Below are positions 982 through 13,948 of a stretch of DNA of 13,948 bases, in pieces (positions within the stretch are counted from its first letter, which is position 1; every line of letters starts with the position of its first letter). The notes under the pieces are model-generated. The model searched no databases, was not told the DNA's origin, and worked only from the letters and a program-made list of their open reading frames with translations. Made by a program: the position numbers and the translations under genes. Source of the DNA: Clostridia bacterium (GTDB lineage: Bacteria; Bacillota_A; Clostridia; Christensenellales; Aristaeellaceae); NCBI GenBank assembly GCA_017938645.1, contig JAGBBE010000116.1:1-13948 (forward strand). Reading direction: 5' to 3'.

Positions 982-1107
982 CCAGGGGCTGAGCCCCTGG
1001 ACCCCGGACTGCGCGCCGCGGGCGCGCAGGGCTTGGCGGACGGAGTTTGTTCTTGCCCTTTCAGACCGCCGGTCGGCGGAGGGCCTCCCGGCTCGCGTGC
1101 GCGATCG
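982..1107 (+). repeat. Structured intergenic repeat, copy 1 (short form, 126 bp)
   Basis: First copy of the five-copy family. Hairpin I has arms CCAGGGGC/GCCCCTGG around TGA (982-1000). Hairpin II has arms CTGCGCGCC/GGCGCGCAG around GCG (1009-1029). A GGCTTGGCGGACGG block follows, then a 19-nt variable linker, then CAGAC and hairpin III with CCGCC/GGCGG arms (1066-1079). It closes with GGAGGGCCTCCCGGCTCGC and GATCG. It starts directly after the recA stop and is followed at once by an intrinsic terminator. Its length equals that of copies 4 and 5. Confidence 0.9.
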
Positions 1108-1108
1108 A

Positions 1109-1154
1109 AAAAAACCAGCGTTTCTTCTAATTTATGAAGCAGCGCTGGTTTTTT
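1109..1154 (+). terminator. Intrinsic terminator after recA/repeat copy 1
   Basis: Six A's then CCAGCG (1109-1120) pair with CGCTGG and six T's (1143-1154), giving a 12-bp outer stem. An inner CTTC/GAAG stem caps an 8-nt AT-rich loop. The A-tract and T-tract on the two sides could let it work in both directions. A diverged copy with a compensatory pair change lies at 13877-13920. It probably ends the recA transcript. Confidence 0.85.
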
Positions 1155-1182
1155 GTATGGAAGAGAAGAAGAGGGCGCGTCA
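1155..1182 (+). repeat. 28-bp tail identical to the window's last 28 bases
   Basis: The purine-rich stretch directly after the terminator T-tract is identical to 13921-13948. With repeat copy 1 and the terminator it makes a unit of about 200 bp that occurs at both ends of the window. The match may continue past the window edge. Confidence 0.9.
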
Positions 1183-1347
1183 CAGGGTGCGCCCGGAACT
1201 ATGGCATAAATGTTGGATACGTTCCTCCTTCTTATATCCTTTTATCTTTGCCCTACGGGGGTCCGGGGTGTCCCCGGTCGTTTCAAGGGGGATACGGGAG
1301 TCCAGAGGGTCGAAGGGGGGAAATCGAAATCCCCCCTGACCCTCTGG
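1173..1347 (+). other. Three-hairpin intergenic segment between recA and the yesL-like gene
   Basis: Three separate inverted repeats are visible. GGGCGC pairs with GCGCCC (1173-1178 with 1189-1194). CCGGGG pairs with CCCCGG around TGT (1263-1277). A long GC-rich hairpin at 1302-1347 has a 10-bp outer stem (CCAGAGGGTC/GACCCTCTGG) and a 7-bp inner stem (GGGGGGA/TCCCCCC). None is followed by a clear T-tract, so I do not call them terminators. No coding frame here has a convincing ribosome site. From 1348 to about 1465 I see nothing I can name. Confidence 0.6.
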
Positions 1348-1468
1348 CCCTAGCGGAGCGGGCAGAGAACAAGACCTGTGCCTGCAAGGCGCACAACAAA
1401 CAGAGCACCCAACCAAAAAACGCCCGCGCTGCGTCTAAGCGCCCCATCATAATTTACGGTATGGTCAT

Positions 1469-1496
1469 TTGTTTTTCACCATATATGTGCTATAAT
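1469..1496 (+). promoter_or_regulatory. Sigma-A-like promoter with extended -10
   Basis: A perfect TATAAT is at 1491-1496, preceded by TGC (TGN extended -10) at 1488-1490, in an abruptly AT-rich patch of an otherwise GC-rich window. The best -35 is TTGTTT at 1469-1474 with a 16-bp spacer. It is weak, as is common when the -10 is extended. It lies about 36 bp before the yesL-like start and probably drives the four-gene run to hslO. Confidence 0.75.
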
Positions 1497-1532
1497 ATAT
1501 TCTGTATTCCTATGTGAATGGAGGAACCCCCT

Positions 1533-2531
1533 ATGTTTGGAAAGATGATGAACCGCTTCTATTACGGCAAGAGCGGCAAGGGCGACTATACCAAGGAAGA
1601 TCTGCCCACGACACGCTGGCAGCTTTTCTGGGAAATGCTGCGCGTGCGCTTTGCTTCCCTGTTCAAGCTGAACCTTCTGTACATGATCGCATGGATTCCT
1701 GCCATCATCGTTATCGGCCGCGGCGTCATGCTGGCCTATTCCGGCCTTGCCAACGTGGTGGAGCATCAGGCCATGATGATCGCCGGTGAGATCACCGAGG
1801 ACGCGTTCCGTCAGATCAATGGCGAATTTATGGAAGCCGTCAAGGCGCTGCTGATGCAGACGCTTGTACTTCTGGTGCCTGCGCTGGCCGTGACCGGCCC
1901 CTTTACCGCCGGCATCTCCTACGTCACCCGTAACTGGGCGCGCGACGAACACGCCTTCGTGCTGTCCGATTTCATGGACGCGGTGAAGGAGAACTGGAAG
2001 CACGCGCTGATCACCTCCACAATCACCGGTCTGGCTCCGCTGCTCATGTACGTGTGCATCACCTTCTACGGCCAGATGGCTGCCCAGAGCGTTCTGTACG
2101 CCATTCCTCAGGCGCTGATCATCATGGTGGGCGTCGTGTGGATGTCCGCGCTGATGTACATCTATCCGCAGATGGTAACTTACAAGATCAATTACAAGGG
2201 TCTTCTGCGCAACAGCATCATCATGGTCATCGGCCGCCTGCCCATGACCATCGGCATCAAGCTGATCACGCTGATTCCGCTGATGATCTGCCTTGCCGTC
2301 AGCTTCCTCACGCCCTACGCCCAGTACGCGCTGATGATTTACGCCGCCTACTACATTCTGGTGGGCTTTGCGCTCAGCCGCTTCATCCAGGCCAGCTATG
2401 CCAACGCCGTGTTTGACCGTTACCTCAACGTAAACATCGAAGGCGCTCAGGTGGGCCGCGGATTGTACAACGAAGAGGACGAAGAGGAAGAAGCCGCTTC
2501 CGAAGAAGAAAACCAGTCCGCTGATCTGTAA
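1533..2531 (+). CDS. YesL-like (DUF624) integral membrane protein
   Basis: Predicted polytopic membrane protein of 332 aa; function unknown. The signature resembling DUF624/YesL is the GPFTAG...YVTRNWARDEHAF...SDFMDAVKENWKHA stretch between the second and third membrane segments. About six hydrophobic segments are seen near residues 47-70, 105-131, 158-181, 188-214, 227-261 and 265-288. The cytosolic-looking tail is strongly acidic (NEEDEEEEAASEEEN). The start at 1533 is chosen because GGAGGAA at 1520-1526 sits 8 nt ahead of it; the in-frame ATG at 1518 overlaps that ribosome site and is rejected. It is the first gene of a run continuing to hslO. In other Firmicutes YesL-type genes often sit near carbohydrate-uptake genes, but none is present here. 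The family call rests on motif memory, not a search. Confidence 0.75.
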   Translation: MFGKMMNRFYYGKSGKGDYTKEDLPTTRWQLFWEMLRVRFASLFKLNLLYMIAWIPAIIVIGRGVMLAYSGLANVVEHQAMMIAGEITEDAFRQINGEFMEAVKALLMQTLVLLVPALAVTGPFTAGISYVTRNWARDEHAFVLSDFMDAVKENWKHALITSTITGLAPLLMYVCITFYGQMAAQSVLYAIPQALIIMVGVVWMSALMYIYPQMVTYKINYKGLLRNSIIMVIGRLPMTIGIKLITLIPLMICLAVSFLTPYAQYALMIYAAYYILVGFALSRFIQASYANAVFDRYLNVNIEGAQVGRGLYNEEDEEEEAASEEENQSADL

Positions 2532-2550
2532 GAAAACTGGGTATCCTAAG

Positions 2551-2567
2551 CCTCCGTAAGGAGGTGA
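2551..2567 (+). promoter_or_regulatory. Ribosome binding site of SASP gene inside a short hairpin
   Basis: AAGGAGGTGA at 2558-2567 is a near-perfect anti-16S match, 4 nt before the ATG at 2572. The GGAGG core (2560-2564) can pair with CCTCC at 2551-2555 across a GTAA loop, which could mask the site in the mRNA. Whether this controls translation is inference. Confidence 0.6.
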
Positions 2568-2571
2568 CGGA

Positions 2572-2763
2572 ATGCAGGATCTCACCGGCACAGCCCGGCG
2601 GAACGCGCTGATGAAGCTGACGCAGCAGGAGCGTCTGAAGTATGAAATCGCCAAAGAGCTCGGGCTGCTTGAGCGCGTGCGCGAGGTCGGCTGGGCGGGA
2701 CTGACCGCCAAGGAAACCGGCCGCATCGGCGGGCTGATCAAAAGCAGGAATCAACAGCACTAA
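2572..2763 (+). CDS. Small acid-soluble spore protein, alpha/beta type (divergent, SspF-like)
   Basis: A 63-aa protein expected to coat and protect spore DNA from UV and other damage and to be degraded at germination. LKYEIAKELGL (residues 22-32) matches the first conserved block, whose Glu-Ile bond (25-26) is the usual cut site of germination protease GPR. The second block, ETGRIGGLIKSR (48-59), matches the ANGSVGGEITKR-type motif of classical members. The middle (ERVREVGWAGLTAKE) is closer to SspF-type members, whose signature is GW..I.A.. . The start follows an excellent ribosome site. The next gene's site (TAAAGGAG) overlaps its stop codon, so the two are translated from one message. A forespore sigma-G promoter would be expected for a SASP, but none was seen upstream within the operon. 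Confidence 0.85.
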   Translation: MQDLTGTARRNALMKLTQQERLKYEIAKELGLLERVREVGWAGLTAKETGRIGGLIKSRNQQH

Positions 2764-2775
2764 AGGAGTTTTGTC

Positions 2776-3564
2776 ATGTACACCGCATTTGCATCCGTAT
2801 ACGACCGTCTGATGGCCGACGTGGACTATCAGGGCTGGGCAAGGTTTTATCACACCCTGATGGAGCGCTACGGCGTTCCCCGCGGCAAGGTATGCGAATG
2901 CGCCTGCGGTACCGGCTCGATCACCATTGCACTGAGCCGTCTGGGCTACCAGATGACCGGCGTGGATCTCTCGCCCGACATGCTCTTTGAAGCTTCGCAG
3001 AAGGCGCGCAGGTCGGGCGCGATGATCCCGTTTGTCAAGCAGGACATGCGCACGCTGCATCTGCACCGGCAGATGGATGCGGTTCTGTGCACCAACGACG
3101 GCCTCAACTACCTCAAGGATGCGGCGGAGCTTACGGATTTCTTCCGCGCCGCGTGGGTGGCGATTCGTCCCGGCGGCGGACTGTTCCTTGACCTGAGCAC
3201 CCCCTACAAGCTCGAAAATGTTTTGGGCGATCATTTCATCGGTGACGAGACTGAGGACATCGCCTATCTGTGGCAGAACCAGCTCAACCGTCAGCACGGC
3301 TATGTGGATCTCAACCTTGCCATTTTTGTCAGGCAGAAGGACGAGACCTACACCCGCATCGGCGAGAGTCAGCGCCAGTATCTGCATTCCGCCCAGCGCA
3401 TCACCGAGCTGCTCGAAGCGGTGGGCTTCACCAATGTATGCGTCTTTGGCGACCGCAAGCTGCACGCTCCCGCGCCGCACGAGCTGCGCTGGTTCGTAGC
3501 CGCGCACAAGCCCATGGAGGATGAAGCCATTTCCACCGTCGGCGAACGCCTGACGGAGATCTGA
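2776..3564 (+). CDS. Class I SAM-dependent methyltransferase, YqeM-like
   Basis: Probable S-adenosylmethionine-dependent methyltransferase of 262 aa; substrate unknown. The N-terminal MYTAFASVYDRLM is typical of the YqeM-like group. Motif I, ECACGTG, is at residues 41-47. The acidic residue ending strand 2 is D64 in GVDLSPDM, followed by KQDMRTL (88-94) and the LCTNDGLNYL stretch (104-113), which replaces the usual motif IV. Length fits a single Rossmann domain with a C-terminal extension. The start is fixed by AAAGGAG at 2762-2768, which overlaps the SASP stop. The gene for hslO follows after 24 nt. In Bacillus, yqeM lies in a ribosome-assembly and competence cluster; that context is absent here, so the target may differ. 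Confidence 0.9.
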   Translation: MYTAFASVYDRLMADVDYQGWARFYHTLMERYGVPRGKVCECACGTGSITIALSRLGYQMTGVDLSPDMLFEASQKARRSGAMIPFVKQDMRTLHLHRQMDAVLCTNDGLNYLKDAAELTDFFRAAWVAIRPGGGLFLDLSTPYKLENVLGDHFIGDETEDIAYLWQNQLNRQHGYVDLNLAIFVRQKDETYTRIGESQRQYLHSAQRITELLEAVGFTNVCVFGDRKLHAPAPHELRWFVAAHKPMEDEAISTVGERLTEI

Positions 3565-3588
3565 TATCCATACGGAGGACGAATTTCC

Positions 3589-4476
3589 ATGATGAACAAG
3601 GACCAGATGATTCACATCACTTTGATGGACGGCATGGTTCGCGGCCTGCTTTTGACCGCCACCAACACCGTGGCGCATGCCGCCGCCATCCACTGCACCA
3701 GTCCCGTAGCCACCGCCGCTCTGGGCCGCAGCCTCATGGGCACCGCCATGCTCGGCGCGATGCTCAAGGGCGACGAGTCCAGCGTCACCGTCACCATTGA
3801 CGGCGGCGGACCCATCGGCCGCATCGTCTGCGTTGCCGACAAGGAAAGCGTACGCGGCTGCGTAGATGTGCCCAATCTCGAAATGCCCCTGCGTCCCGAC
3901 GGCAAGCTGGCCGTTGGCATGGCGGTGGGCAATCAGGGCCGCATGAGCGTGGTCAAGGATCTGGGCATGAAAAACCCCTATGTCGGACAGGTGCCGCTCT
4001 TCTCCGGCGAGATTGCCGAGGACTTTGCCACCTACTATGTGCAAAGCGAGCAGACCCCGACCCTGCAGTCCCTCGGCGTGCTCGTCAGCGGCGAAACCGT
4101 ACTCACCGCAGGCGGCGTGCTTCTGCAGACCCTGCCCGGCTGCCCGGACAGCATCATCTCCGAGCTGGAGCTTCGCAGCCCGCTGATGGCCGACATCAGC
4201 CGCGAGCTGAGCTACGAGCCCATGGAGGCTCTGGCCGCGAAGTGGTTCGACGGTCTGAAGATGGTCGTTCTCGACCGCAAGCCCCTCGAGTACCGCTGCA
4301 ACTGCTCCCGCTCCCGCATGGAGAAGGCGCTGATCACCCTCGGCGCTGAAGAACTCACCCGCATGATTCAGGACGAGCAGGAAGGCGCGGAGCTCACCTG
4401 CCACTTCTGCAAAAAGACCGAAAAATTCACCCAGCACGACCTGATCCGTCTCCTCAACTCCGCAACCAGGGGCTGA
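3589..4476 (+). CDS. hslO: Hsp33 redox-regulated molecular chaperone
   Basis: Cytosolic holdase that is activated when oxidative stress removes zinc from its C-terminal cysteines and they form disulfides. The sequence shows the Hsp33 core (VRGLLLTATN, the ATAALGRSLMGTAMLGAMLK helix region, IDGGGPIGRI) and the zinc site CNC at 237-239 and CHFC at 271-274, separated by 31 residues as in the family. It is 295 aa, the usual length. The start at 3589 is chosen for GGAGG at 3574-3578; the next Met (3592) is possible. The last residues (TRG) and the TGA stop are read from a half copy of the intergenic repeat (4466-4476), so the native C-terminus was probably slightly different. It is the last gene of the operon. 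Confidence 0.97.
   Translation: MMNKDQMIHITLMDGMVRGLLLTATNTVAHAAAIHCTSPVATAALGRSLMGTAMLGAMLKGDESSVTVTIDGGGPIGRIVCVADKESVRGCVDVPNLEMPLRPDGKLAVGMAVGNQGRMSVVKDLGMKNPYVGQVPLFSGEIAEDFATYYVQSEQTPTLQSLGVLVSGETVLTAGGVLLQTLPGCPDSIISELELRSPLMADISRELSYEPMEALAAKWFDGLKMVVLDRKPLEYRCNCSRSRMEKALITLGAEELTRMIQDEQEGAELTCHFCKKTEKFTQHDLIRLLNSATRG
4466..4476 (+). repeat. Half repeat: left arm and loop of hairpin I
   Basis: The 11 bases CCAGGGGCTGA equal the first 11 bases of copy 1 and stop where copy 2 begins at 4477. This looks like the stub of an older copy interrupted by copy 2. It supplies the hslO stop codon. Confidence 0.7.
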
Positions 4477-4633
4477 CCAGGGGCGGTGCCCCTGGATCCC
4501 GGACTGCTTCGCAGGGATGGCCGACGGAGTTGGGCCTTGCCTCTTCAGACTGCCGGTACCTGCGGCGGGCGAATGTACCGACACATTCGCCGTGCGCAGC
4601 GCCGGAGGGCCTCCCGGCTCGCTTGTGTGATCG
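4477..4633 (+). repeat. Structured intergenic repeat, copy 2 (long form, 157 bp)
   Basis: Hairpin I has arms CCAGGGGC/GCCCCTGG around GGT (4477-4495). Hairpin II is the short CTGC-TTC-GCAG (4504-4514). After GGCCGACGG and the 19-nt linker comes CAGAC, then a two-tier hairpin: an outer CTGCG/CGCAG (4560-4564 with 4595-4599) and an inner GGCGAATGT/ACATTCGCC (4568-4576 with 4583-4591). The conserved GGAGGGCCTCCCGGCTCGC end and TGATCG close it. No terminator follows. It lies directly after the hslO stop. Confidence 0.88.
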
Positions 4634-4643
4634 GTTGTTTTCC

Positions 4644-4687
4644 TTGGGTTTCAGGGCTTTGGCGTTATCCTTTTATTTTTGCAAAAA
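4644..4687 (+). promoter_or_regulatory. Possible weak promoter and palindrome before the TPR gene
   Basis: TTGGGT (4644-4649), 16 bp, then TATCCT (4666-4671) is the only promoter-like pair between copy 2 and the next gene, and it is a poor match. It overlaps a 17-base stretch (4666-4682) that matches 1235-1251 at 16 positions. A perfect 12-base palindrome, TTTTTGCAAAAA, lies at 4676-4687. Confidence 0.25.
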
Positions 4688-4706
4688 CCTCCCATAAGGA
4701 GTTTGG

Positions 4707-6407
4707 ATGACCAATATCTTTCTTCAACATGATTCCTTCCAACGCCCCGCGAGTTACTGGCTCAAGCGCGCGGAACGCTGCCATCAGAGCGGCGATCTTC
4801 TGCGCGCGGCGGTGCTGGAGCGCCACGCCCTTCGGGCTGATCAAAGCAGCGAGGCGGCGTCGGTGAGCTATGTGCTCACCCTGCGCCAGCTCAGCTGTTA
4901 TGAAGCCAGCAGCCGCGAGGCGTTTGCCGCTCTTGCGAGAAATCCGGAAAACAAGACTCTGCTTGGGCTTGTGGGGCAGAACATGCTGTCTCTTGGGCTC
5001 AGGGATGCCGGGCTGGACGCGCTCAACATCTATCTTTCCCAGCCTTTGCCGGACTTCCCGCCGTCCTGGCACGAAGATGCGTGCGAGCTTTACGATCTCA
5101 CCTTTGAGGCCTCGGAGGATCCGCCGCGCCGTCGCAAGGCGAGGCACGACGGATTGCTTGAGTTGGCCGCGCGCCACATGGCCAAGGGCGACATGGAAGG
5201 TGCAAAGCGCGCGCTGGATCGGTGTTCACGCGCGCCGTATCAGGGCAAAAGTGCGAAGCGCGAATTGCTATGGACGCTTTATCATCTCAAATCCGGCTCG
5301 CCGGAGTGTTTTGATCACCTGATGAACGCGGTTTCGACCCGTCCGTACAGCGCGCAGGTTCGTGCATCCGCTGCGGGCGCGCTATGGAAGATGGGGCTGA
5401 AAAAGCCTGCTTACACGGAGCTGCTCACCGCTGCGCGTCTGGCTTCCTCGCCTGCGGATATGGTCAGCGTGCTGCTGAGCGCCGATGAGCTGGACGCTGT
5501 GCACCTTGCCTCGGGAATGCTTCGCCGCATGCACCGCCGCATGCCCAACCGCTGTCCGGTGCTGTACAACCTATGCGTCTGTCTTCTGCGGCTGGGCAGG
5601 CTGGAGGAAGCCTCGCGCCTGATCCATCAATGCCGGGAGATCGATCCCGACGACGTGGCGTCGGAGCTTTTGTTTGGCAGCGTTCGCGCCATGCAGGAGC
5701 AGGCGTTTTCTGCGGAAAGTGTGAAAGCGGCCGCGAAGGAGCTGTCGTGGTACGGCGTTTTCTCCTCAGCCGAGCTCAACCGCATGGTTGCGCCCATTAT
5801 GGAGGCCGTCGAGGCCGGGCCGGAGGCTTTTGCCGGACAATTATGCTCCGATCTTCGTCTGCGCCGCCGTTTCCTGCTGCTGCTGACCCTGCCCATGGAA
5901 TGGCCCGCGCGGCTTCTGTACGCCGTATCCGAAACGCTGCCCCGGGACGAGTGCGAAGTGCTTATGCGCGAGGTGCTTTTGCAGCACCCCTCTCCCTCCG
6001 CCGCGAAGCTGTGCGCCGTATCCGCGCTTCGTTCGCTGGGCGTTCCGCCCCCCTATGCCGCATGGCAGGCCGGACGCATCGCATGGATTGACCCCACGCG
6101 CGAACCTGCCGGGTCTGCGCCGTTCCGTACGCGGCTTATTACGCTGCGCATTCACCGCGCGCAGAAGCTCTGTGCGGGCGACCGCGGCATTGCGCTTTGG
6201 TGCATGGAGGCCGTGCACCGCATGACCAAAAACCAGCGCAGCCGCGTGATTGCCGATCCTCTGCACGTATGGCCCATGGCTTTTGCCATCCGTTACCGCA
6301 CCCTCAGAGGCATGGAGCCTCTTCATGTGGATATCAGCCGTCTGGGACGAGGACGTCTGCAGGCGCTCACACAGGCGCTTGCCGTCCTGCGCACCCTCAC
6401 CAAATAA
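4707..6407 (+). CDS. TPR-repeat protein of unknown function
   Basis: A 566-aa protein built almost wholly of alpha-helical hairpins. Clear tetratricopeptide-like units include AERCHQSGDLLRAAVLERHA near the N-terminus, LAARHMAKGDMEGAKRAL around residues 150-170, and the best one, YNLCVCLLRLGRLEEASRLI, around 286-305, followed by DPDD. There is no signal peptide, membrane segment or catalytic motif, so it is probably a cytosolic scaffold that binds other proteins. The C-terminal third (from about residue 370) is rich in Arg, Leu and Pro and less regular. AAGGAG at 4696-4701 lies 5 nt before the ATG. Its TAA stop overlaps the ribosome site of the next gene, so the two are in one operon. I do not recognise a named family. 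Confidence 0.9.
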   Translation: MTNIFLQHDSFQRPASYWLKRAERCHQSGDLLRAAVLERHALRADQSSEAASVSYVLTLRQLSCYEASSREAFAALARNPENKTLLGLVGQNMLSLGLRDAGLDALNIYLSQPLPDFPPSWHEDACELYDLTFEASEDPPRRRKARHDGLLELAARHMAKGDMEGAKRALDRCSRAPYQGKSAKRELLWTLYHLKSGSPECFDHLMNAVSTRPYSAQVRASAAGALWKMGLKKPAYTELLTAARLASSPADMVSVLLSADELDAVHLASGMLRRMHRRMPNRCPVLYNLCVCLLRLGRLEEASRLIHQCREIDPDDVASELLFGSVRAMQEQAFSAESVKAAAKELSWYGVFSSAELNRMVAPIMEAVEAGPEAFAGQLCSDLRLRRRFLLLLTLPMEWPARLLYAVSETLPRDECEVLMREVLLQHPSPSAAKLCAVSALRSLGVPPPYAAWQAGRIAWIDPTREPAGSAPFRTRLITLRIHRAQKLCAGDRGIALWCMEAVHRMTKNQRSRVIADPLHVWPMAFAIRYRTLRGMEPLHVDISRLGRGRLQALTQALAVLRTLTK

Positions 6408-6420
6408 GGAGGAAAACAAA

Positions 6421-7245
6421 ATGCAGATCATCGATTTTGACGCCAAATTCACCGAGGTTCTCACCGACTGGATCGAAAAGAACCGTTCCCGCTTCCGCCG
6501 TCCCGACGACATGGAAAACGAAGTGCCCGACGTCTACCTGCGCTGGCTCAACACCCCGGCCCAGTGGCTGGACGGCGCGACCCCCGGCACCTATTTTGAG
6601 CGCTATGATTCCAGCGCCGAACTGTGCGATCTGCTCAAGGCGTATCTGGCCGAGGGCATCCCGGTGCCGGATCCGCTTCTGGACCGTCTGGAGGAGCTGG
6701 CGGATGAGCAGGTGCTGCTTGACCTTGCCAAGGACAAAGCCGCGCCCTGCGAAGCACGCATGACCGCCATCGAGCTTCTTCGCCAGATCGAATCCACCCT
6801 GCCCATGGTGGAGTTTATCCGCTGGCAGGTGGACCGCGACGACGAGGACGACATCCTCGACAACGCTCTCGAAAGCCTGCGTCAGATGGGCGAAGCCGTG
6901 CGCAAGCCCGCCAAGATCGCCTTCACCGCCGCCGATAAGGAAGGCAAGGAAGCCCTCCTCGACGTTCTGGCCGACTATCCCGGCGACGACGACGTATTCC
7001 AGTTTGCCCTCGAGCAGTTCCGCACCCAGAAGGACAAGCTGGGTCTGTTTGCCGGCTATCTGGCCAAGCTCGACGACGACCGTGCCCTGGAGTATCTCCT
7101 CGACGTAGCCGAAGGCGACGACGTATCCTACTCCGACTTCATCGAAATCCGCTCCGCCATCGAGCGTCTGGGCAGCGAAGCACCCGTCAGGGACTGGTCC
7201 AACGATCCCACCTACAAGGCCTTCCGCCGTCTGCAGAGGCAGTAA
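6421..7245 (+). CDS. Acidic HEAT-like helical protein, unknown function
   Basis: A 274-aa soluble protein, strongly acidic and nearly all helix. Repeated units such as LLDRLEELADEQVLLDLAKD, CEARMTAIELLRQIEST, ILDNALESLRQMGEAV, GKEALLDVLADYPGDDDVFQFALEQF and ALEYLLDVAEGDD resemble HEAT/ARM-type hairpins that test or hold partner proteins. No catalytic motif is visible. The start at 6421 is set by GGAGG at 6408-6412, 8 nt upstream, which overlaps the TAA of the TPR gene. The frame is open further upstream, but that stretch lies inside the TPR gene and has no ribosome site. A conserved hypothetical with its operon partners is the likely status; the HEAT label is a judgement from the pattern. Confidence 0.85.
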   Translation: MQIIDFDAKFTEVLTDWIEKNRSRFRRPDDMENEVPDVYLRWLNTPAQWLDGATPGTYFERYDSSAELCDLLKAYLAEGIPVPDPLLDRLEELADEQVLLDLAKDKAAPCEARMTAIELLRQIESTLPMVEFIRWQVDRDDEDDILDNALESLRQMGEAVRKPAKIAFTAADKEGKEALLDVLADYPGDDDVFQFALEQFRTQKDKLGLFAGYLAKLDDDRALEYLLDVAEGDDVSYSDFIEIRSAIERLGSEAPVRDWSNDPTYKAFRRLQRQ

Positions 7246-7279
7246 CGGAAGCGCCCGCCTGGCATTTCAGGAGGTTCAA

Positions 7280-7945
7280 ATGATCACCCTTAAAGATGTA
7301 CAAAACAACGAGAACATTCAGGCGCTGATCGAGGCGGGCAACCGCTACCTCGAAGCGCTGGGATACACGGATCACGGTCCCCGCCATGTGGGGTTTGTGA
7401 GCCATACGGCGCGAAACATTCTGGAAACGCTCGGCTATCCGGAGCGCGAGGTGCATTTGGCTGCGATTGCAGGCTGGGTGCACGACGTGGGCAATTCCGT
7501 CAACCGTCATGAGCACGGCCAGAGCGGCGCTTTGCTTTTGTATCCGATTCTCAAGGAAATGGGCATGCCTGTACGCGACGTCATCGACGTGATCACCGCC
7601 GTGGGCAATCACGAGGAGCAGAGCGGATTTGTCTCCAGCCCTGTGAGCGCGGCGCTCGCCCTTGCCGACAAGGCGGACGCGCACAAGTCCCGCGTGCGCG
7701 CCGGCGGCTTTGATCCGTCCGACCCGCACGACCGCGTGAACAACGCCATCCAGCACAACCGCGTGGTCGTCGACCGCTTCAACGGCGTCATCCGTCAGGA
7801 GCTCACCATGGACGGCACCTCCAGCGTGCTGGAGTTTCTGTCCATCTACATGTCGCGCATCGTGATGTGCGAAAAGGCCGCGAAGTTCCTCGGCCAGCGG
7901 TTTGAGCTGTGCATCAACGGCCAGACCATCAACAATCCCGTGTAA
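7280..7945 (+). CDS. HD-domain metal-dependent phosphohydrolase
   Basis: A 221-aa soluble protein of the HD superfamily, which cleaves phosphate esters of nucleotides or second messengers with bound divalent metal. The metal-ligand pattern is complete: H36 (in DHGPRH), the H68-D69 doublet (WVHDVGN), H77/H79 (NRHEHGQSG), H111 (GNHEE) and an Asp near 130-133 (LADKAD). It lacks REL/SYNTH, GAF, EAL or HD-GYP extensions, so the substrate cannot be named. AGGAGGT at 7269-7275 fixes the start, 34 nt after the previous stop. The next gene starts 19 nt after its stop. The operon position between helical scaffold proteins and a membrane-anchored zinc-ribbon protein suggests a signalling or turnover role, which is inference. 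Confidence 0.9.
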   Translation: MITLKDVQNNENIQALIEAGNRYLEALGYTDHGPRHVGFVSHTARNILETLGYPEREVHLAAIAGWVHDVGNSVNRHEHGQSGALLLYPILKEMGMPVRDVIDVITAVGNHEEQSGFVSSPVSAALALADKADAHKSRVRAGGFDPSDPHDRVNNAIQHNRVVVDRFNGVIRQELTMDGTSSVLEFLSIYMSRIVMCEKAAKFLGQRFELCINGQTINNPV

Positions 7946-7964
7946 TCCCCGAAGGAGGCCTTCC

Positions 7965-9962
7965 ATGATCTGTCAGCACTGCGGCCATTCCATGCCGGAT
8001 GGCTCTCTCACCTGTGACAAATGCGGCACGTATCTGGGCAAGTATGCCACGCCCACGTCCTCGTCGGGCGTACGCGCCATGCGTCAGGGCCGGGTGAACG
8101 CGGCTTCGCCCACGCTGCCTTCGCAGCCGGGCAAGGTGCGCGAGTACGGCGACTATGAGCTTTCCTCTGTGCCCGTAGCGCCGCCGCATGAGAACCAGCG
8201 CCGCAGACCCCAGCCCATGTACGGCAAAAGCGGTTCCAGCCGTCCCGACACGCGGCGCGGCGTGCCGGTAAACGCCTACGGCCGTGCGCCGCACGTCAAG
8301 CACAAACCCACGCACTTAAACGGCATGCGCCGCCGCAATATCAACTGGATGCTCATCGCCCTGATCGCCGTCGTTCTGGTCGTGGCGGCAGGCGCGGCTC
8401 TGATGGTGTACACCAGCCGCAGCGAATCCGGACAGCTCTCCGCCGCGCGCAGGAACGCACTGGCTGCGAACGAAAACTTCTTCACCCTTGCCCGCAACAC
8501 CCGCGACGCGCTGGTACAGACCGAGCGCGAGGCGCTGCTCAAGGAATGGGGCAGCATAGAGCCGCAGTACTACTGGCAGGCCGGACAGGACTATCTGGAC
8601 GTCGGCGACGTGCAGACGGCCATCACCACCTTCCGCATCGGCGATGTGGTCGATCCTGAAAACTACGACGGACTGATGCTTCTGGCCAACGCCTACGAGC
8701 TCAACGCCGAGGATGACAAGGCCGAGGAGGTCTATCTGCACCTGACTGCTGAGGTCAGCCCCTTCCGCAGCGAGGCCTACACCGCGCTTATCCGCATGTA
8801 TCAGGCGCAGGAGCGCCGTCCCGAAGCAGCGGAGATGATGCGCACCGCCTACAACAACACCGACAAGGAAAACTTCCGTCTGGAGCGCGAGGACTACATT
8901 CCCAAGACGCCTCAGACCGACCTCAACGCAGGCCGCTACGAGATTACCAAGCTCACCGGCGACGTGCATCTCATCTCGCCTCAGGGCTATGACATCTACT
9001 ACACCACCGACGACAAGGCCATCCTGCCGGACGAAGGACTTCTGTCCACCGACGGCTCCTTTGAGCCGCGTGAAGGCACCGTGACCCTGCGCGCCGTATG
9101 CGTCAGCGGCGATCTGGTGAGCGATCCGCTGAGCGTAACCTATTCGTTCTACTACCCCTCGCCGCCCGCGCCCAAGTGCAACCTCGCGCCCAACACCTAC
9201 AAATCCCTGCGCGAGGTCACCCTGCGTCCCGGCGAGCTCGCCAACGCCAAGGAGCTCAAAAAGGCCGAAATCGCCGAAATCGAAAGCCACTACACCTACT
9301 ACTACACCATCGACGGCTCCACGCCCGACATGGACAGCCCCGTTTTCGACGGCACGCCCATCAAGCTGCCCTCCGGCCGCGTGACGCTCAAGGCCGTCTG
9401 CGTCAACCAGTACAACAAGATGAGCTCGATTCTCGAGGTCGGCTACAAGTTTGACGTCAAGCCCTATCCGCTGGAGGTCTATGGCGAAACGGACGTCTTC
9501 ACCGGCTTTATCCTCAATCAGACCAGCATTGAGGATTTCAAGTCCACCTTCGGCGATCCCGTGCGCGTTCTCGAGACCTCCTACCTCGGCCTTCCCAACA
9601 GCGCCCAGCATCTTGAATATCCGTGGGGCTACGCGGTTTTCATCCTCGACGGAAACCAGTGGGAGCTGGTGCGCATCGCCATGAACCGTTCCCTCGGCAA
9701 CGCGCCGCGCGGCGTGGGCTTCGGCTCCACCGAATCCGAAATCACCTCCGTTTACAAGGATTTCGGCCAGCTTCAGTCGCCCAACGGCGAGCGCGGCCTC
9801 TACTACGACTATCCGCGCGTCGGACAGATCAAAATCGACTCCGACGGCACCCGCGTCATCGAGTACAGCTGCTACACCGCCGCCAGCAACATGTGGATTC
9901 TCCAGTACCGTCTGGGCTCCAACGGCCGCGTATCCGAAATCATCCACTACTACCAGCCCTAG
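7965..9962 (+). CDS. Zinc-ribbon, single-TM, TPR, double chitobiase-C-domain protein
   Basis: A 665-aa protein with an unusual order of domains. The N-terminal zinc ribbon has C3, C6, C17 and C20 (ICQHCG, CDKCG). A Pro/Arg-rich linker follows (about 45-120), then one membrane segment (about 125-149), a TPR region (about 198-298), and two beta-sandwich units like the chitobiase/beta-hexosaminidase C-terminal family (about 320-395 and 400-497, each with IYYTTD- or YYTIDGSTP-type signatures and VTLKAVCV). A last domain of about 165 residues contains GFGSTESEI...Y, which may be BamE-like. The zinc ribbon should be cytosolic and the rest outside. The start at 7965 is chosen for GAAGGAGG (7951-7958) and because it gives the ribbon a proper N-terminus; upstream codons are out-of-frame HD-gene sequence. 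Its TAG stop overlaps repeat copy 3 by one base. Function unknown. Confidence 0.86.
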   Translation: MICQHCGHSMPDGSLTCDKCGTYLGKYATPTSSSGVRAMRQGRVNAASPTLPSQPGKVREYGDYELSSVPVAPPHENQRRRPQPMYGKSGSSRPDTRRGVPVNAYGRAPHVKHKPTHLNGMRRRNINWMLIALIAVVLVVAAGAALMVYTSRSESGQLSAARRNALAANENFFTLARNTRDALVQTEREALLKEWGSIEPQYYWQAGQDYLDVGDVQTAITTFRIGDVVDPENYDGLMLLANAYELNAEDDKAEEVYLHLTAEVSPFRSEAYTALIRMYQAQERRPEAAEMMRTAYNNTDKENFRLEREDYIPKTPQTDLNAGRYEITKLTGDVHLISPQGYDIYYTTDDKAILPDEGLLSTDGSFEPREGTVTLRAVCVSGDLVSDPLSVTYSFYYPSPPAPKCNLAPNTYKSLREVTLRPGELANAKELKKAEIAEIESHYTYYYTIDGSTPDMDSPVFDGTPIKLPSGRVTLKAVCVNQYNKMSSILEVGYKFDVKPYPLEVYGETDVFTGFILNQTSIEDFKSTFGDPVRVLETSYLGLPNSAQHLEYPWGYAVFILDGNQWELVRIAMNRSLGNAPRGVGFGSTESEITSVYKDFGQLQSPNGERGLYYDYPRVGQIKIDSDGTRVIEYSCYTAASNMWILQYRLGSNGRVSEIIHYYQP

Positions 9963-10143
9963 CAGGGGCAGTGCCCCTGCACCCCGGACAAGGGCTTCTC
10001 CCTTGACCCATGCACTGCTTCGCAGAGTTGGCCGACGTTGGTTCGCCTTGCATGCTCAGACCGCCACACCTGCGGTGAGCGAAGGTACCGGTACCTTCGC
10101 CGTGCGCAGCACCGGAGGGTGTCGGGGCTCGCCCGGGTGATCG
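9962..10143 (+). repeat. Structured intergenic repeat, copy 3 (long form, 182 bp)
   Basis: Hairpin I has arms GCAGGGGC/GCCCCTGC around AGT (9962-9980), sharing the last base of the upstream stop. An extra hairpin CAAGGG/CCCTTG (9989-10005) is unique to this copy. The short CTGC-TTC-GCAG (10015-10025) follows, then GGCCGACG and the 19-nt linker. An outer CTGCG/CGCAG (10070-10074 with 10105-10109) encloses a perfect palindrome of two 11-base arms (10079-10100). The end is diverged (GGAGGGTGTCGGGGCTCGC) but keeps TGATCG. No T-tract follows; uvrC starts 25 bp later. Confidence 0.88.
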
Positions 10144-10168
10144 TTCTGAAAAAAAAAGGGGGGATCCG

Positions 10169-12016
10169 GTGAATCCTGGACTGGAATATAAAATTAAGAT
10201 GCTGCCGGAGAGCCCCGGCTGCTATATCATGAAATCGCATGGGGAAATCATCTACGTCGGCAAAGCCGTCAACCTGAAAAACCGTGTGCGGCAGTATTTT
10301 CACGGAACGCACACGCCCAAGGTTGCGGCCATGGTCAGCCGCGTGGATGATTTCGATCTCATGCTGTGCGAGACCAATTTTGAGGCGCTCACGCTCGAAT
10401 GCAACCTCATCAAGAAGCACAAGCCGTTTTACAACATCCTTCTCAAGGACGACAAGCATTATCCCTATCTGCGCATTGACCTCAACGAGCGCTATCCGCG
10501 CCTGACCCTCGCGCGCAGGATGGATCAGCGTGACGGCGCCAGATACTTCGGCCCCTACATCGGCGCAACTGCCGTTCGTCAGGTCATGGACGAGGTGCGC
10601 CGCTTCTTTCCGCTGAGAACCTGTTCGCTGAATCTGCCGCTCAAGTCTCCGCGCCGACCCTGCATTCAGCACCAGATCGGACGCTGCAAAGCGCCGTGCG
10701 CCGGACTGATTTCCGAAGAGGAATACGGCAAAATGCTGCAAAGCGTGATCAGCTTCCTCAACGGCGACAGCCGCGAGCTGCTCAAATCCCTCACCGAGGA
10801 AATGATGCAGTGTTCCCTGCGCATGGAATACGAGCAGGCGGCGCTTCTGCGCGACAAAATCGCCGACATCAGGCAGCTCATGGAGGAGCAGCACGCCATC
10901 CAGACCCGCGACGTGGAGCAGGACATCCTCGCCGTGGCCAAAGACGATCAGGACGCGATGGTGCAGCTGACGCACATCCGCGCCGGACGCATGGAAGGCG
11001 GCCGCGCGTTCCTCATGGAGCACAGCGGCGACGAGGAGCCCGGCGTGATTCTCTCCAACTTCATCACCCAGTATTACGACGACGAGCATCTGATCCCGCG
11101 CAACATTCTGGTGGAAACCGTTTCCGATCCTGCGGAGCTGGAGGGCTGGCTGCGTCAGCGCAAAGGCGGCGCGGTGACGCTTGCGGTGCCTCAGCGCGGC
11201 GACAAGGCTGACCTCATCCGCCTCTCCCGCAAGAATGCCGAGGACGCGCTCCTCAAGCACCGGCAGAACGCCTCCATCCGCGACATGCGCACGCGTCAGG
11301 CGATGCTTGAGCTCAAGGAAGTGCTGCATCTGCCCACGCTGCCTCTGCGCATCGAGGGCTACGACATCTCCAACACCATGGGCCAGCAGAGCGTGGCCGC
11401 GATGGTCGTCTTCGAAAACGGTCTGCCTGCCAAAAAAGCCTACCGCATCTACCGCATCAAAACCGTCGAAGGCGCGAACGACTTTGCCTCCATGCACGAG
11501 GTCATCACCCGCAGGCTCACCCACGGGCTGGAGGAGCGAAAGCAGCGCATCGAGGAGGGACTGGACCCCGACGGCGGCAGCTTCTCCAAGTTCCCCGATG
11601 TAATCCTCATCGACGGCGGCCCGCAGCAGGTGGCCTTTGCGCAGGATGCGACGCACTCCGTGGGCATGGAGATTCCGATGTTTGGCCTTGCGGAGAAGTT
11701 TGAGGAGATCTATCTGCCCAACCGCCCGGACGATCCCATCCGGCTGGACAGGCGCTCCAACGCTCTGCACCTCATCCAGCACGTGCGCGACGAGGCGCAT
11801 CGCTTCGGCATCACGCATCACCGCGCGCTGCGCGGCAAGGCGAACCTCAAAAGCGCGCTTTCCGACATCGAAGGCATCGGCCCGCGCAAGCAGCAGGCGC
11901 TGATCCGTCATTTCAAGAGCGTGAAAGCCATCTTTGAAGCCACCAAGGACGAACTGATGCAGGTCGATGGCATCAGCGAGGTGCTTGCCAAGCGCATCAT
12001 CGACAGCACCAAATGA
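10169..12016 (+). CDS. uvrC: UvrC, excision nuclease subunit C
   Basis: Makes the two incisions on either side of a DNA lesion, with UvrB, in nucleotide excision repair. At 615 aa it is of normal length. The GIY-YIG nuclease domain (about residues 14-92, PGCYIM...IIYVGKA) makes the 3' cut. The UVR motif near 212-240 (EYEQAALLRDKIADIRQL) binds UvrB. The RNase H-like domain has D399 (GYDISN), D482 (ILIDGGP) and H544 (DEAHRFG), the expected Asp-Asp-His set for the 5' cut. Two helix-hairpin-helix motifs end the protein (IEGIGPRKQQALI, VDGISEVLAKRII). The start is GTG at 10169, chosen because it gives a full N-terminus; the G-run at 10158-10163 is a poor ribosome site. The first ATG (10199) would cut into the conserved region. 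No separate promoter lies between copy 3 and this gene. Confidence 0.98.
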   Translation: MNPGLEYKIKMLPESPGCYIMKSHGEIIYVGKAVNLKNRVRQYFHGTHTPKVAAMVSRVDDFDLMLCETNFEALTLECNLIKKHKPFYNILLKDDKHYPYLRIDLNERYPRLTLARRMDQRDGARYFGPYIGATAVRQVMDEVRRFFPLRTCSLNLPLKSPRRPCIQHQIGRCKAPCAGLISEEEYGKMLQSVISFLNGDSRELLKSLTEEMMQCSLRMEYEQAALLRDKIADIRQLMEEQHAIQTRDVEQDILAVAKDDQDAMVQLTHIRAGRMEGGRAFLMEHSGDEEPGVILSNFITQYYDDEHLIPRNILVETVSDPAELEGWLRQRKGGAVTLAVPQRGDKADLIRLSRKNAEDALLKHRQNASIRDMRTRQAMLELKEVLHLPTLPLRIEGYDISNTMGQQSVAAMVVFENGLPAKKAYRIYRIKTVEGANDFASMHEVITRRLTHGLEERKQRIEEGLDPDGGSFSKFPDVILIDGGPQQVAFAQDATHSVGMEIPMFGLAEKFEEIYLPNRPDDPIRLDRRSNALHLIQHVRDEAHRFGITHHRALRGKANLKSALSDIEGIGPRKQQALIRHFKSVKAIFEATKDELMQVDGISEVLAKRIIDSTK

Positions 12017-12022
12017 ATTTTT

Positions 12023-12055
12023 GCAGCCGGAGAAATCCCTCTGGCTGCTATTTTT
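12023..12055 (+). terminator. Intrinsic terminator of uvrC
   Basis: GCAGCCGGAG (12023-12032) pairs with CTCTGGCTGC (12039-12048) across a 6-nt loop, with one G-T pair, followed by TATTTTT. It lies 6 nt after the uvrC stop. This is the one gene end in the window that uses an ordinary terminator without the repeat. Confidence 0.92.
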
Positions 12056-12066
12056 GTGTCCGTGTG

Positions 12067-12074
12067 CATATTCT
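12067..12074 (+). promoter_or_regulatory. Possible sporulation-sigma -10 element
   Basis: CATATTCT fits the CATAnnnT -10 pattern of mother-cell factors sigma-E/sigma-K and lies about 34 bp before the start of the SipL-like gene. No convincing -35 is seen, because the upstream bases belong to the uvrC terminator. It is suggested mainly because SipL-type genes are mother-cell expressed. Confidence 0.3.
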
Positions 12075-12107
12075 TCCTAACAAAGCCATTTGCAGGAGGA
12101 ATGAAGC

Positions 12108-13643
12108 ATGACAACGGATACCAGAACACCGGAAATTCTCAGGGAGGAGCTGCCCCTGCAGCGGTTTATCGGCGCGGGGCTGAGTCAGGCGGTGGTGGAA
12201 GGCGAGGTGGCGCTGCCGGGCGGGCTGCGCGAAGAAACCACGGTGCTGTCCGCAGAAGCCATGGCAGTGCTCGACCGCAGCCTTGTGGAAAACAGCCGCG
12301 TCACTGCCGACGGGCGCGTAACCTTTCACGTGCTCTACACGCAGGGCGATCCCACCAAGGTAAGCGCACTGGAGGCCTCGGCTGAGTTCACCCATCCCAC
12401 CGAAATCGCCGGAGCTCTGCCCGGCATGACCGCGCCCGTGAGCCTGATGGTGGAGCATGTGGACGCGCAGGCGCAGGGCGGCAGGCTGCATCTGATGGCG
12501 ATCATCCGCGTACACTCGCGCGTCTTTTCGGACGAGCCGGTTTCCGTGGTCACAGGCATCCGCGGCATGGACGGATTGATGCTGCGCACTGAAACCCTGC
12601 GCATTCCGCGCATTGCCGCGCAAGGCTCGCAGGACAAACTCATCCGCGAGGAATGCGAACTCCCCTCGCCGCTTCAGATCACCGACACCCTCTACGCCAC
12701 CGCCATCGCCACCGTGCATGACGTGATGGGCGGCGAGGGGCGCGCCTCTGTATCCGGCCAGGTCGATCTGGAAGTCACACACACCAGTCTCATGCCCAAC
12801 CGTCCGGTTGTGCTCACGCGGCACTCGATCCCGTTTGAAGAAACCGTCACGCTCAGCGGCGAAATGGGCGAAGCGCTCAGCGTATCCGCCTCCGTGCGCG
12901 ACGTAGCCGTATTATCGCAGGAGGGCATGGACGGCGAGCGCACCCTTCGCGCAGAAGTCCTGCTCGGCCTCACCGCGCAGTCCACCCGGGAAAAGGAGGT
13001 CTGTCTCCTGCTGGACGCCTACACCACCGAAGGCGACCAGCTTTCCCTCTCCGTGCAGCAGATGCAGCGCGCCGCCGGATACCGTCAGATCCGTACCGCC
13101 GAAAGCGGAAAGCTCACGCTGATGCTCGACGGTCAGCCGCCCGTGCGCACACCTCTGCGCGCCGTACTCACCCCGGTGATCACCGACCTCACACCGCAGT
13201 CGGGCAAGCTTCTGGCCGAGGGCATGATGGACGTGACCCTTCTCTACATGACCGACGATGATCCCGCGCCTCACACCTATCGCACCGAGGAACCCTTCCG
13301 CATGGTTTTTGCCTGCGATCCCAGCCTTCCCGAGTCCCTCATCCTCACTCCGGGCAGCGTGGACGTATCCGGCGTCACCAGCGACCGCGTGGAGATCAAA
13401 TACATCCTCCACCTCGACGCAAGCGACGTCCGTCTCTCTCCCGAAGTCCTCGTCACCCAGGCCTCCACCCAACCCTCCTCCGCCATCCCCGGCGGCGTCA
13501 TCGTCTGCTTTGCCCGTCCGGGCGAAACCCTCTGGGACATCGCCAAAAAATACCGCGTCAGCTGCGACTCCCTACGCCGCATGAACCCCGACCTCACCGA
13601 CCGCCCCACCAAAGTCCTCATCTATCAGGGGCAGTGCCCCTGA
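12108..13643 (+). CDS. DUF3794 (SPOCS) and LysM spore-coat morphogenesis protein, SipL-like
   Basis: A 511-aa protein resembling SipL of Clostridioides difficile, which binds SpoIVA and anchors the coat to the forespore. It has a start region LPLQRFIGAGLSQAVVEGEV, about three beta-rich DUF3794-type segments (near residues 20-140, 175-290 and 330-440, with VTFHVLYT- and VTLLYMTDDD-type strands) and a C-terminal LysM (about 466-508, RPGETLWDIAKKY...MNPDL). No signal peptide is present, as expected for a mother-cell cytosolic protein. AGGAGGA at 12094-12100 gives the ATG at 12108. The final five residues, QGQCP, and the TGA are read from hairpin I of repeat copy 4, so the native end of the LysM has probably been replaced. 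It stands alone between the uvrC terminator and the tandem repeats. Assignment to SipL itself rather than another DUF3794-LysM paralogue is likely but not certain. Confidence 0.88.
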   Translation: MTTDTRTPEILREELPLQRFIGAGLSQAVVEGEVALPGGLREETTVLSAEAMAVLDRSLVENSRVTADGRVTFHVLYTQGDPTKVSALEASAEFTHPTEIAGALPGMTAPVSLMVEHVDAQAQGGRLHLMAIIRVHSRVFSDEPVSVVTGIRGMDGLMLRTETLRIPRIAAQGSQDKLIREECELPSPLQITDTLYATAIATVHDVMGGEGRASVSGQVDLEVTHTSLMPNRPVVLTRHSIPFEETVTLSGEMGEALSVSASVRDVAVLSQEGMDGERTLRAEVLLGLTAQSTREKEVCLLLDAYTTEGDQLSLSVQQMQRAAGYRQIRTAESGKLTLMLDGQPPVRTPLRAVLTPVITDLTPQSGKLLAEGMMDVTLLYMTDDDPAPHTYRTEEPFRMVFACDPSLPESLILTPGSVDVSGVTSDRVEIKYILHLDASDVRLSPEVLVTQASTQPSSAIPGGVIVCFARPGETLWDIAKKYRVSCDSLRRMNPDLTDRPTKVLIYQGQCP

Positions 13644-13750
13644 ACCCCGGACTGCGCGCCGTGGGCGCGCAGGGCTTGGCGGACGGTGGGTGGTATTAAC
13701 TTCTCAGACCGCCGGTCGGCGGAGGGCCTCCCGGCTCGCTTGCGTGATCG
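13625..13750 (+). repeat. Structured intergenic repeat, copy 4 (short form, 126 bp)
   Basis: Hairpin I has arms TCAGGGGC/GCCCCTGA around AGT (13625-13643) and lies inside the coding frame of the SipL-like gene; the right arm holds its stop. Hairpin II has arms CTGCGCGCC/GGCGCGCAG around GTG (13652-13672). The 19-nt linker differs from all other copies. Hairpin III is at 13709-13722, followed by GGAGGGCCTCCCGGCTCGC and TGATCG. It abuts copy 5 with no base between. Confidence 0.9.
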
Positions 13751-13876
13751 GCAGGGGTTGACCCCCTGCACCCCGGACTGCGCGCCGTGGGCGCGCAGGG
13801 CTTGGCGGACGGAGTTTCGTCTTGCCTTTTCAGACTGCCGGTCGGCGGAGGGCCTCCCGGCTCGCTTGAGTGATCG
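13751..13876 (+). repeat. Structured intergenic repeat, copy 5 (short form, 126 bp)
   Basis: Hairpin I has arms GCAGGGG/CCCCTGC (13751-13769), with one inner pair lost. Hairpin II (13778-13798) is identical to that of copy 4. The 19-nt linker resembles that of copy 1. Hairpin III has a T-G pair where copies 1 and 4 have C-G. It ends in TGATCG and runs straight into a terminator, exactly as copy 1 does. Confidence 0.9.
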
Positions 13877-13920
13877 AAAAACCCAGCGTTTCTTCATTAT
13901 TGAAGCAACGCTGGGTTTTT
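13877..13920 (+). terminator. Intrinsic terminator after tandem repeats
   Basis: A perfect 14-bp stem joins AAAAACCCAGCGTT (13877-13890) to AACGCTGGGTTTTT (13907-13920). An inner CTTC/GAAG stem caps a 6-nt loop. Compared with the terminator after recA, an A-T pair has become C-G and a T-G pair T-A, so the structure is kept while the sequence drifts. It should end the SipL-like transcript and may work in both directions. Confidence 0.88.
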
Positions 13921-13948
13921 GTATGGAAGAGAAGAAGAGGGCGCGTCA
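13921..13948 (+). repeat. Copy of the 28-bp tail found after recA
   Basis: Identical to 1155-1182. The window ends inside the match, so its full extent is unknown. Confidence 0.9.

Follow-up and report, generated by a model that had tools for sequence, protein, structure and literature searches.

Repetitive extragenic palindromes (REPs) are dispersed extragenic palindromes that occur in direct or inverted clusters, mostly behind genes and less than 20 bp from their 3' ends; GTAG REPs often provide the TAG stop with one of their ends, and CGTC REPs have no dedicated transposase (PMC3733652, in its available portion). REPs within 15 nucleotides (nt) of a stop codon were reported to stall ribosomes in E. 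coli (PMC12306157, the available part of which cites another study). Gut-1, a probable noncoding RNA, is described in the available part of PMC2864571 as found only in human gut samples. Herein, we analyzed a 13,948-nt contig of a Clostridia bacterium (JAGBBE010000116.1, assembly GCA_017938645.1; the whole stretch is hereafter called the window), in which a preliminary description had noted five copies of a structured intergenic repeat of unknown type. Three hairpins, I, II and III, follow each other in fixed order in this element. By a narrow preference, we read it as a lineage-restricted, dispersed and modular palindromic repeat of the REP/bacterial interspersed mosaic element (BIME) kind that lies at gene 3' ends in sense orientation and starts at the stop codon, in effect a portable gene end.

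REP/BIME elements had been named as the closest analogue, and the shared features bear this out. Compared with the available text of PMC3733652, both are dispersed extragenic palindromes close to gene 3' ends, the repeat can supply the stop, and no dedicated transposase was found. However, the unit described here measures 126-182 nt and has three hairpins in fixed order, whereas the REP of that text is a single 20-40 bp palindrome with one stem-loop. The window copies have no GTAG at the base of hairpin I, and a loosely matched leader of the GACG type (CGTC on the other strand) was present in 13 of the 72 copies that have hairpin III and in 14 of the 36 that do not. Further differences are the placement in sense orientation beginning at the stop codon, the T-run behind hairpin II in some genomes, and the host, a member of the Clostridia; the word Firmicutes is absent from PMC3733652. 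Unlike the REPs linked to a REP-associated tyrosine transposase (RAYT), no RAYT flanked by the repeats was found in the draft genomes of the relatives. Because the REP size, tag and RAYT link fail, we did not file the family as a REP member, although it works like one. It is a real REP-like family that has no name yet, and its anchoring at stops is unusual and testable; REPs near stops have already been described. No description of the family was listed in the literature that we searched.

Miniature inverted-repeat transposable elements (MITEs) such as ERIC, RUP and NEMIS, listed in the available part of PMC3733652, resemble the element in being non-coding, 70-300 bp long, folded and beside genes, but terminal inverted repeats or a target duplication were not recognised here. 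Gut-1 (RF01706) likewise lines up short hairpins whose stems vary and whose spacer is constant, and both occur in one relative, G002; its spacer is GUGAAAU, whereas ACCCC or AGACC is found here, and the window has no Gut-1 match. A search of the window against Rfam 15 gave no match at cut-off; one mir-4766 match (27.7 bits against 72) lay on the inverted repeat behind copy 1. Among 14 loci of relatives, only T-box and Gut-1 reached the cut-off, neither on the element. The T-box leader (RF00230, 94.1 bits; L117:1466-1711) is unrelated to the element. The Gut-1 RNA (51.5 bits, cut-off 50) is at L187:2670-2742 on the minus strand in G002, where it follows an element at a distance of about 90 nt. 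Gut-1 resembles a hairpin array with constant GTGAAAT spacers and may merit re-examination as a repeat.

Structure and distribution of the family

The five copies all lie on the plus strand. The sequence and two spaced patterns agree with the preliminary description on their coordinates, on one order of parts and on the length of 126 bp for three of them. Copy 1 (982..1107), delimited by sequence, patterns, alignment and folds, abuts the recA stop TAA (979-981) and has the simplest anatomy: hairpin I (982-1000; 8 pairs including the outer base), ACCCCGGA, hairpin II (1009-1029), 33 nt, AGACC (1063-1067), hairpin III (1068-1092) and TCGC..GATCG, with the GATCG end at 1103-1107. Copy 2 (4477..4633, 157 nt) abuts the hslO TGA and has a hairpin III about 40 nt larger. 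It is preceded on the plus strand by half a hairpin I with a TGA (4466..4476; the half hairpin, CCAGGGGC, at 4466-4473), as seen from the sequence, the list of open reading frames and orthologues. The hslO frame runs through this half hairpin to its TGA, which is the hslO stop (tail ..TRG), and orthologues end within a few codons. Base 1 of copy 3 (9962..10143, 182 nt) is the final base of the TAG stop of a zinc-ribbon gene; this copy has an additional hairpin between I and II and an enlarged hairpin III. At copy 4 (13625..13750, 126 nt), the SipL/LysM gene enters hairpin I and its stop TGA lies at the 3' foot of that hairpin, the protein tail being QGQCP. Copy 5 (13751..13876, 126 nt) is in direct tandem with copy 4. 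Thus, copies 1-4 all begin where the preceding gene stops, either at its stop codon or over it.

Over 130 nt, copy 1 shares 85% identity with copy 4 and 92% with copy 5. The spaced patterns, hairpin I + (A)CCCGGAC and GGAGGG..GGCTCGC, were derived from the copies themselves; each matched only the five copies in the window, and none of 200 dinucleotide shuffles reached five. The 19-nt linker was correct, as checked with a script in copies 2 and 3 and by eye in the remaining ones, and so was the GATCG end. The GGAGGG...GGCTCGC block, which had been listed as a separate part, is present in all five copies, but it is the loop and 3' arm of hairpin III.

RNA folding of single window copies was not unusual compared with shuffles (z -0.9 to -1.8); the structure of the element rests on covariation. 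As DNA, single copies beat shuffles in just two of the four strands folded. We collected 87 hairpin-III units with a search pattern that fixes three outer pairs. In these, 88.7% of 870 cells pair, and the covariation was 0.409, compared with 0.086 in shuffles (0 of 500 reached 0.409) and 0.076-0.135 with slid partners. The units comprise 19 different stems, with 156 two-sided and 0 one-sided changes, counted as cells and not as independent events. The numbers of pairs and of pair types with changes were not above shuffles (6 vs 5.5 and 14 vs 15.2, respectively). Two positions are unpaired in 46 and 47 of the 87 units, mostly as a TC/TC mismatch. Hairpin I was located by demanding a perfect stem, and its pairing figures are therefore biased. 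RNAalifold, applied to 48 full copies, recovered all three hairpins; 17 of the 24 pairs show a two-sided change.

Hairpin III is the most conserved module. Its flanks are fixed (AGACC/TCGCTTG), and it can be repeated at steps of 70-71 nt. By eye, the stems of the three hairpins combine freely. There were no G-T pairs in the 870 cells, which suggests that the palindromes are maintained at the DNA level or exchanged as whole modules. Given this covariation and the lack of an Rfam match at cut-off on the element, the view of a structured, dispersed family of unnamed type holds.

By UvrC, the window falls among uncultured Clostridia close to Candidatus Limiplasma, the eleven closest UvrC relatives being 72-86% identical. 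Eight of 10 relatives contained the hairpin-I module CAGGGGCNNNGCCCCTGNACCCC, with 2 to 19 occurrences per genome (reversed control, 0 matches). Hairpin-III modules were found in 5 of 11 relatives (2.4-3.1 Mb): 66 in G002, 17 in G001, of which one (L148) is a coding false positive, nine in G004, and one each in G006 and G007. The other six have 0, and the reversed control gave two matches altogether in the eleven. The preliminary description took these five to imply a large genome-wide number if the window density (5 in 14 kb) held. That expectation was not supported: the family is confined to few lineages and the whole genomes of the relatives have no more than 66 modules and often none, so the density is not to be extrapolated. 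The five are not the only copies, since relatives carry the family.

A covariance-model search across relatives, which the preliminary description had proposed, recovered many copies with changed stems and kept structure. The model of the hairpin-III unit matched 14 of 300 genomes of the taxonomic family, some matches being weak or partial, and 4 of 396 genomes of the order. Of the 14, five rest on one match each, two of these partial and weak; 13 or 17 candidates were scored per genome, so that copy numbers are lower bounds. The hairpin-I pattern matched 4 of 391 genomes of the class, three with a single match. The exact window tail pattern had no match in viral or genome contigs. This does not mean that the family is absent from them, because a tail with GATC at that spacing is a window variant. 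Copies 4-5 had no blastn match to phages and plasmids. The family is therefore real, lineage-restricted and confined to few lineages.

Many copies are single or in direct tandem, and neighbouring units in opposite orientation were seen in G002 (C52, C91 and C148); inverted type A pairs were also seen by eye. At L261 (G574:C95), whole elements form a tandem array with steps of about 135 nt. Hybrid elements of type A and hairpin III, with differing stems, follow one and the same gene end (..IIKVLNGD.MGT.LHP stop) in three genomes (L257, L228 and L260).

Position at stop codons

Genes were called with a simple codon-usage script trained on the window. For the context counts, the 90 units from loci with the exact hairpin-III pattern were reduced to 72 first units by removing 18 tandem followers. 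Units less than 125 nt from a locus end and the false positive L148 were left out, window copies 2 and 3, which misfit the exact pattern, are outside the counts, and a fixed offset was used at L192, where no hairpin I was detectable. The upstream gene was co-directional for 60 copies and divergent for 11, and one copy was at a contig edge (60 of 71 against 0.5, binomial p 2.6e-9). For 54 of the 60 co-directional copies, the position of the stop codon relative to hairpin I was in the range -24..+16 nt: at -4..+1 in 17, at +6..+8, in the hairpin loop, in 11, at -24..-5 in 25, and at +16 in one. When the 44 co-directional copies with a called right neighbour were considered, 40 were anchored in this way, compared with 6.9 expected if they were placed uniformly between genes. 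A shortage of space is not the cause of the anchoring, because 34 of these 40 copies have more than 100 nt free behind them. Copies with the hairpin-I pattern and without hairpin III showed the same trend (28 co-directional, 6 divergent, 3 unclassified), with a stop within -45..+16 in 22 of the 28. Only one of the 72 copies was inside a called gene; the family is palindromic, with many copies mostly outside genes. The stop-codon anchoring is a new point beyond the preliminary description.

We then compared orthologous gene ends. Thirteen stop-adjacent ends in G002 were picked by hand, and their orthologues were sought in G374, G001, G004 and G003. Eleven were usable; L158 had no orthologue, and the orthologues of L184 (64%) diverge before the end. 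At 9 of the 11 sites, the G002 gene stops at the same residue as an element-free orthologue, indicating that the element stands at the native stop. As for the individual sites, the final residues CSRG are coded by hairpin I at L157, the sole orthologue of L174 carries an element too, and G374 and G002 have elements with differing stems at two shared sites (L174/L307 and L178/L291). A perfect hairpin followed by a T-run stood no more than 120 nt past the stop in 11 of the 23 orthologues that lack an element-like start; these 11 represent 8 of the 11 sites.

Relatives also differ in the presence of the element at the junctions occupied in the window. The hslO-to-TPR junction spans 230 bases in the window and three in G001, provided that the G001 ATG is the start; by eye, none of 11 relatives has an element of the copy 2 type there, but in G002 a related one follows at a greater distance. 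At the site of copy 3, between the zinc-ribbon gene and uvrC, relative L001 has no element. When ten recA ends were compared, an element was found only in G002, behind a half hairpin.

In the window SipL, the tail QGQCP is coded by hairpin I. Of the 120 SipL homologues listed, 107 carry a hydrophobic-W motif among their ten C-terminal residues, and the final residue is K or R in 71. P0002, a 91% homologue from a different source, has the same QGQCP tail, and the insertion at this site is therefore probably older than the split between the window and P0002. A protein identical to the window SipL is on a contig of 83.9 kb. Among the listed SipL/DUF3794 homologues (P0001-P0120), 17 of 120 end in QG or RG, which hairpin I could code; these ends suggest repeated insertion at the stop of this gene, as far as protein tails can tell.

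At L182 (G002) and L281 (G004), the native last codons (..SRG stop) are at the same time the 5' arm of hairpin I. Here, G002 and G004 have AGG GGG/GGC vs CGC GGN in three element-free relatives, a synonymous change that creates the hairpin I arm. The 3' foot of hairpin I might copy the host stop (TAA..TTA, TGA..TCA). Several G002 copies are suggestive of this, but the orthologues of L159 and L187 use a different stop codon.

Proposed termination and spread, and alternative explanations

Hairpin I lies on or just behind the stop codon and can supply the stop itself, and hairpin II occupies a place at which ordinary intrinsic terminators are frequent in relatives. In 23 of 43 copies in G002 and 8 of 13 in G001, hairpin II is followed within 12 nt by a run of at least four T. 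In these two genomes, hairpin II with its T-run probably ends or weakens transcription there. Hairpin III is probably a recognition site for a protein, perhaps the one that spreads the element. By analogy with the E. coli REPs within 15 nt of stops, hairpin I over a stop may affect ribosomes. The element as a whole may act as an mRNA 3' end. The likeness to an intrinsic terminator lies in hairpin II with its T-run, at places where 11 of 23 element-free orthologues have a hairpin and T-run; the difference is that hairpin II is part of a larger dispersed repeat and that the window and G004 copies have no T-run. A scan of the window listed 25 terminator-like sites vs 11.0 in shuffles; two of the 25 are in the copy 5 linker and none is at a hairpin II. 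Termination by part of the family is likely, and by the window copies it is unproven; copies 1 and 5 are instead followed by a long inverted repeat that ends in a T-run.

Several observations weigh against a portable gene end. The T-run behind hairpin II is missing in the window (0/3), G004 (0/9), G006 (0/1) and G007 (0/1), so that termination cannot be general, and copies 2 and 3 sit between closely spaced co-directional genes. By the strict script, 12 of the 23 element-free orthologues have no hairpin with T-run, and the 11 compared sites had been chosen for stop adjacency. The upstream gene is divergent for 11 of 71 copies, 44 of the 72 copies come from the single genome G002, and the gene calls depend on the simple window-trained script. 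With no G-T pair in the hairpin-III cells, upkeep at the DNA level is as likely as selection on RNA. Finally, a target-site duplication and an autonomous element were not found, the empty sites being compared by eye with flanks too diverged to define a duplication. For this reason, we infer mobility from copy number, presence and absence, and tandem or inverted arrangement.

These points give some room to a selfish miniature element of the MITE or REP type, whose mover inserts at stops or is guided to them, so that the position reflects target choice and the hairpins are signals for the mover. We regard this as a possible but doubtful explanation. That 34 of 40 anchored copies are next to the stop even though over 100 bases behind them are free would be expected of it, as would tandem units, adjoining units in opposite orientation, and the lack of G-T pairs in hairpin-III stems, which is the expectation for hairpins of single-stranded DNA. 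Half-hairpin remnants followed by a new copy look as if copies had landed in older ones (copy 2; L160/L203, L166 and L181; by eye). However, no transposase is linked to the copies, TAA and TGA triplets are everywhere and yet most examined copies are at gene stops, and hairpin II is terminator-like in two genomes. The most far-reaching reading is a mobile gene end: inserted precisely at native stops in sense orientation, with the stop folded into or against the first hairpin, bringing its own terminator and moved by an enzyme that recognises AGACC-hairpin-TCGCTTG as single-stranded DNA. We consider this reading rather unlikely.

The mover might be a RAYT, as for REPs in the strict sense, and the palindromic, dispersed copies near gene ends match the available description in PMC3733652. 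Matches to the Y1 transposase (PF01797) were indeed present in G002, G007 and G009, with fragments in G586, and the gene at L199 (G002:C29) is RAYT-like. However, by eye, this gene is followed by its own GTAG-type palindrome (GTAGGGGCGCACCTG..), which belongs to a separate REP family, and the eight Y1-matching loci (L195-L202) have neither the hairpin-I nor the hairpin-III pattern. In addition, three of the four copy-rich genomes, the drafts G001, G004 and G374, gave no Y1 match, and GTAG is missing from the hairpin base in all five window copies. RAYT mobilisation is thus improbable. We give slightly less credence still to a trans-acting or cis-regulatory structured RNA (small RNA or riboswitch-like) that was duplicated many times. 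It would account for the conserved unpaired motifs and covarying stems, which are probably transcribed with the upstream gene. One hairpin III overlaps a weak RAGATH-25 match (L187:2539-2590, plus strand; 18.2 bits, cut-off 49; E 0.059 for 501 bases), which is probably due to chance. The copies follow unrelated genes, both in the window (recA, hslO, the zinc-ribbon gene and sipL) and in G002 (RNase Y-, glutamate dehydrogenase- and RpoC-like, named by reading C-termini), and the free combination of stems also argues against such an RNA. A weak scan of the 200 nt preceding the copies gave no promoter-like site, and the window as a whole had 3 promoter-like sites vs 2.9 in shuffles. Chance or an assembly artefact is hardly credible. 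Several contigs of relatives end in or near an element, as drafts often break at repeats, but there were zero shuffle matches, several separate assemblies have different stems, and the 91% SipL homologue of another source shares QGQCP.

Neighbouring repeats and implications

Copies 1 and 5 are followed by similar tails of about 75 nt past GATCG (1108-1182 and 13877-13948), each with an inverted repeat, a T-run and GTATGGAAGAGAAGAAGAGGGCGCGTCA; the identity is 92% over the last 53 nt (1130-1182 and 13896-13948). The long inverted repeat behind copy 1 (1108..1155, plus strand; repeat family D12) is terminator-like by its sequence and T-run, and the simple terminator scan did not list it. That behind copy 5 (13877..13920, plus strand; I11) has 20-nt arms that are 95% complementary, also with a T-run. 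Judged from these sequences, copies 1 and 5 with their tails are a larger duplicated unit. The common tail had no match among 277 loci. A sixth, more distant element lies at about 1251..1347 on the minus strand. Its plan is CCAGAGGG(T)..hairpin..CCCTCTGG-ACTCCC-..-CCGGGGACACCCCGG-ACCCCC and, by eye, recurs behind hslO in G002 (L215).

If the anchoring is functional, one repeat family would stand at the ends of dozens of unrelated genes in a single lineage and partly replace ordinary terminators, which would make it a natural experiment on the evolution of gene 3' ends. If the anchoring reflects targeting, a mechanism that finds stop codons would be implied. Both ideas can be tested at the orthologous sites, some filled and some empty. 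Either way, the family brings REP-like biology to the Clostridia, with three hairpins as its plan and without a linked RAYT.

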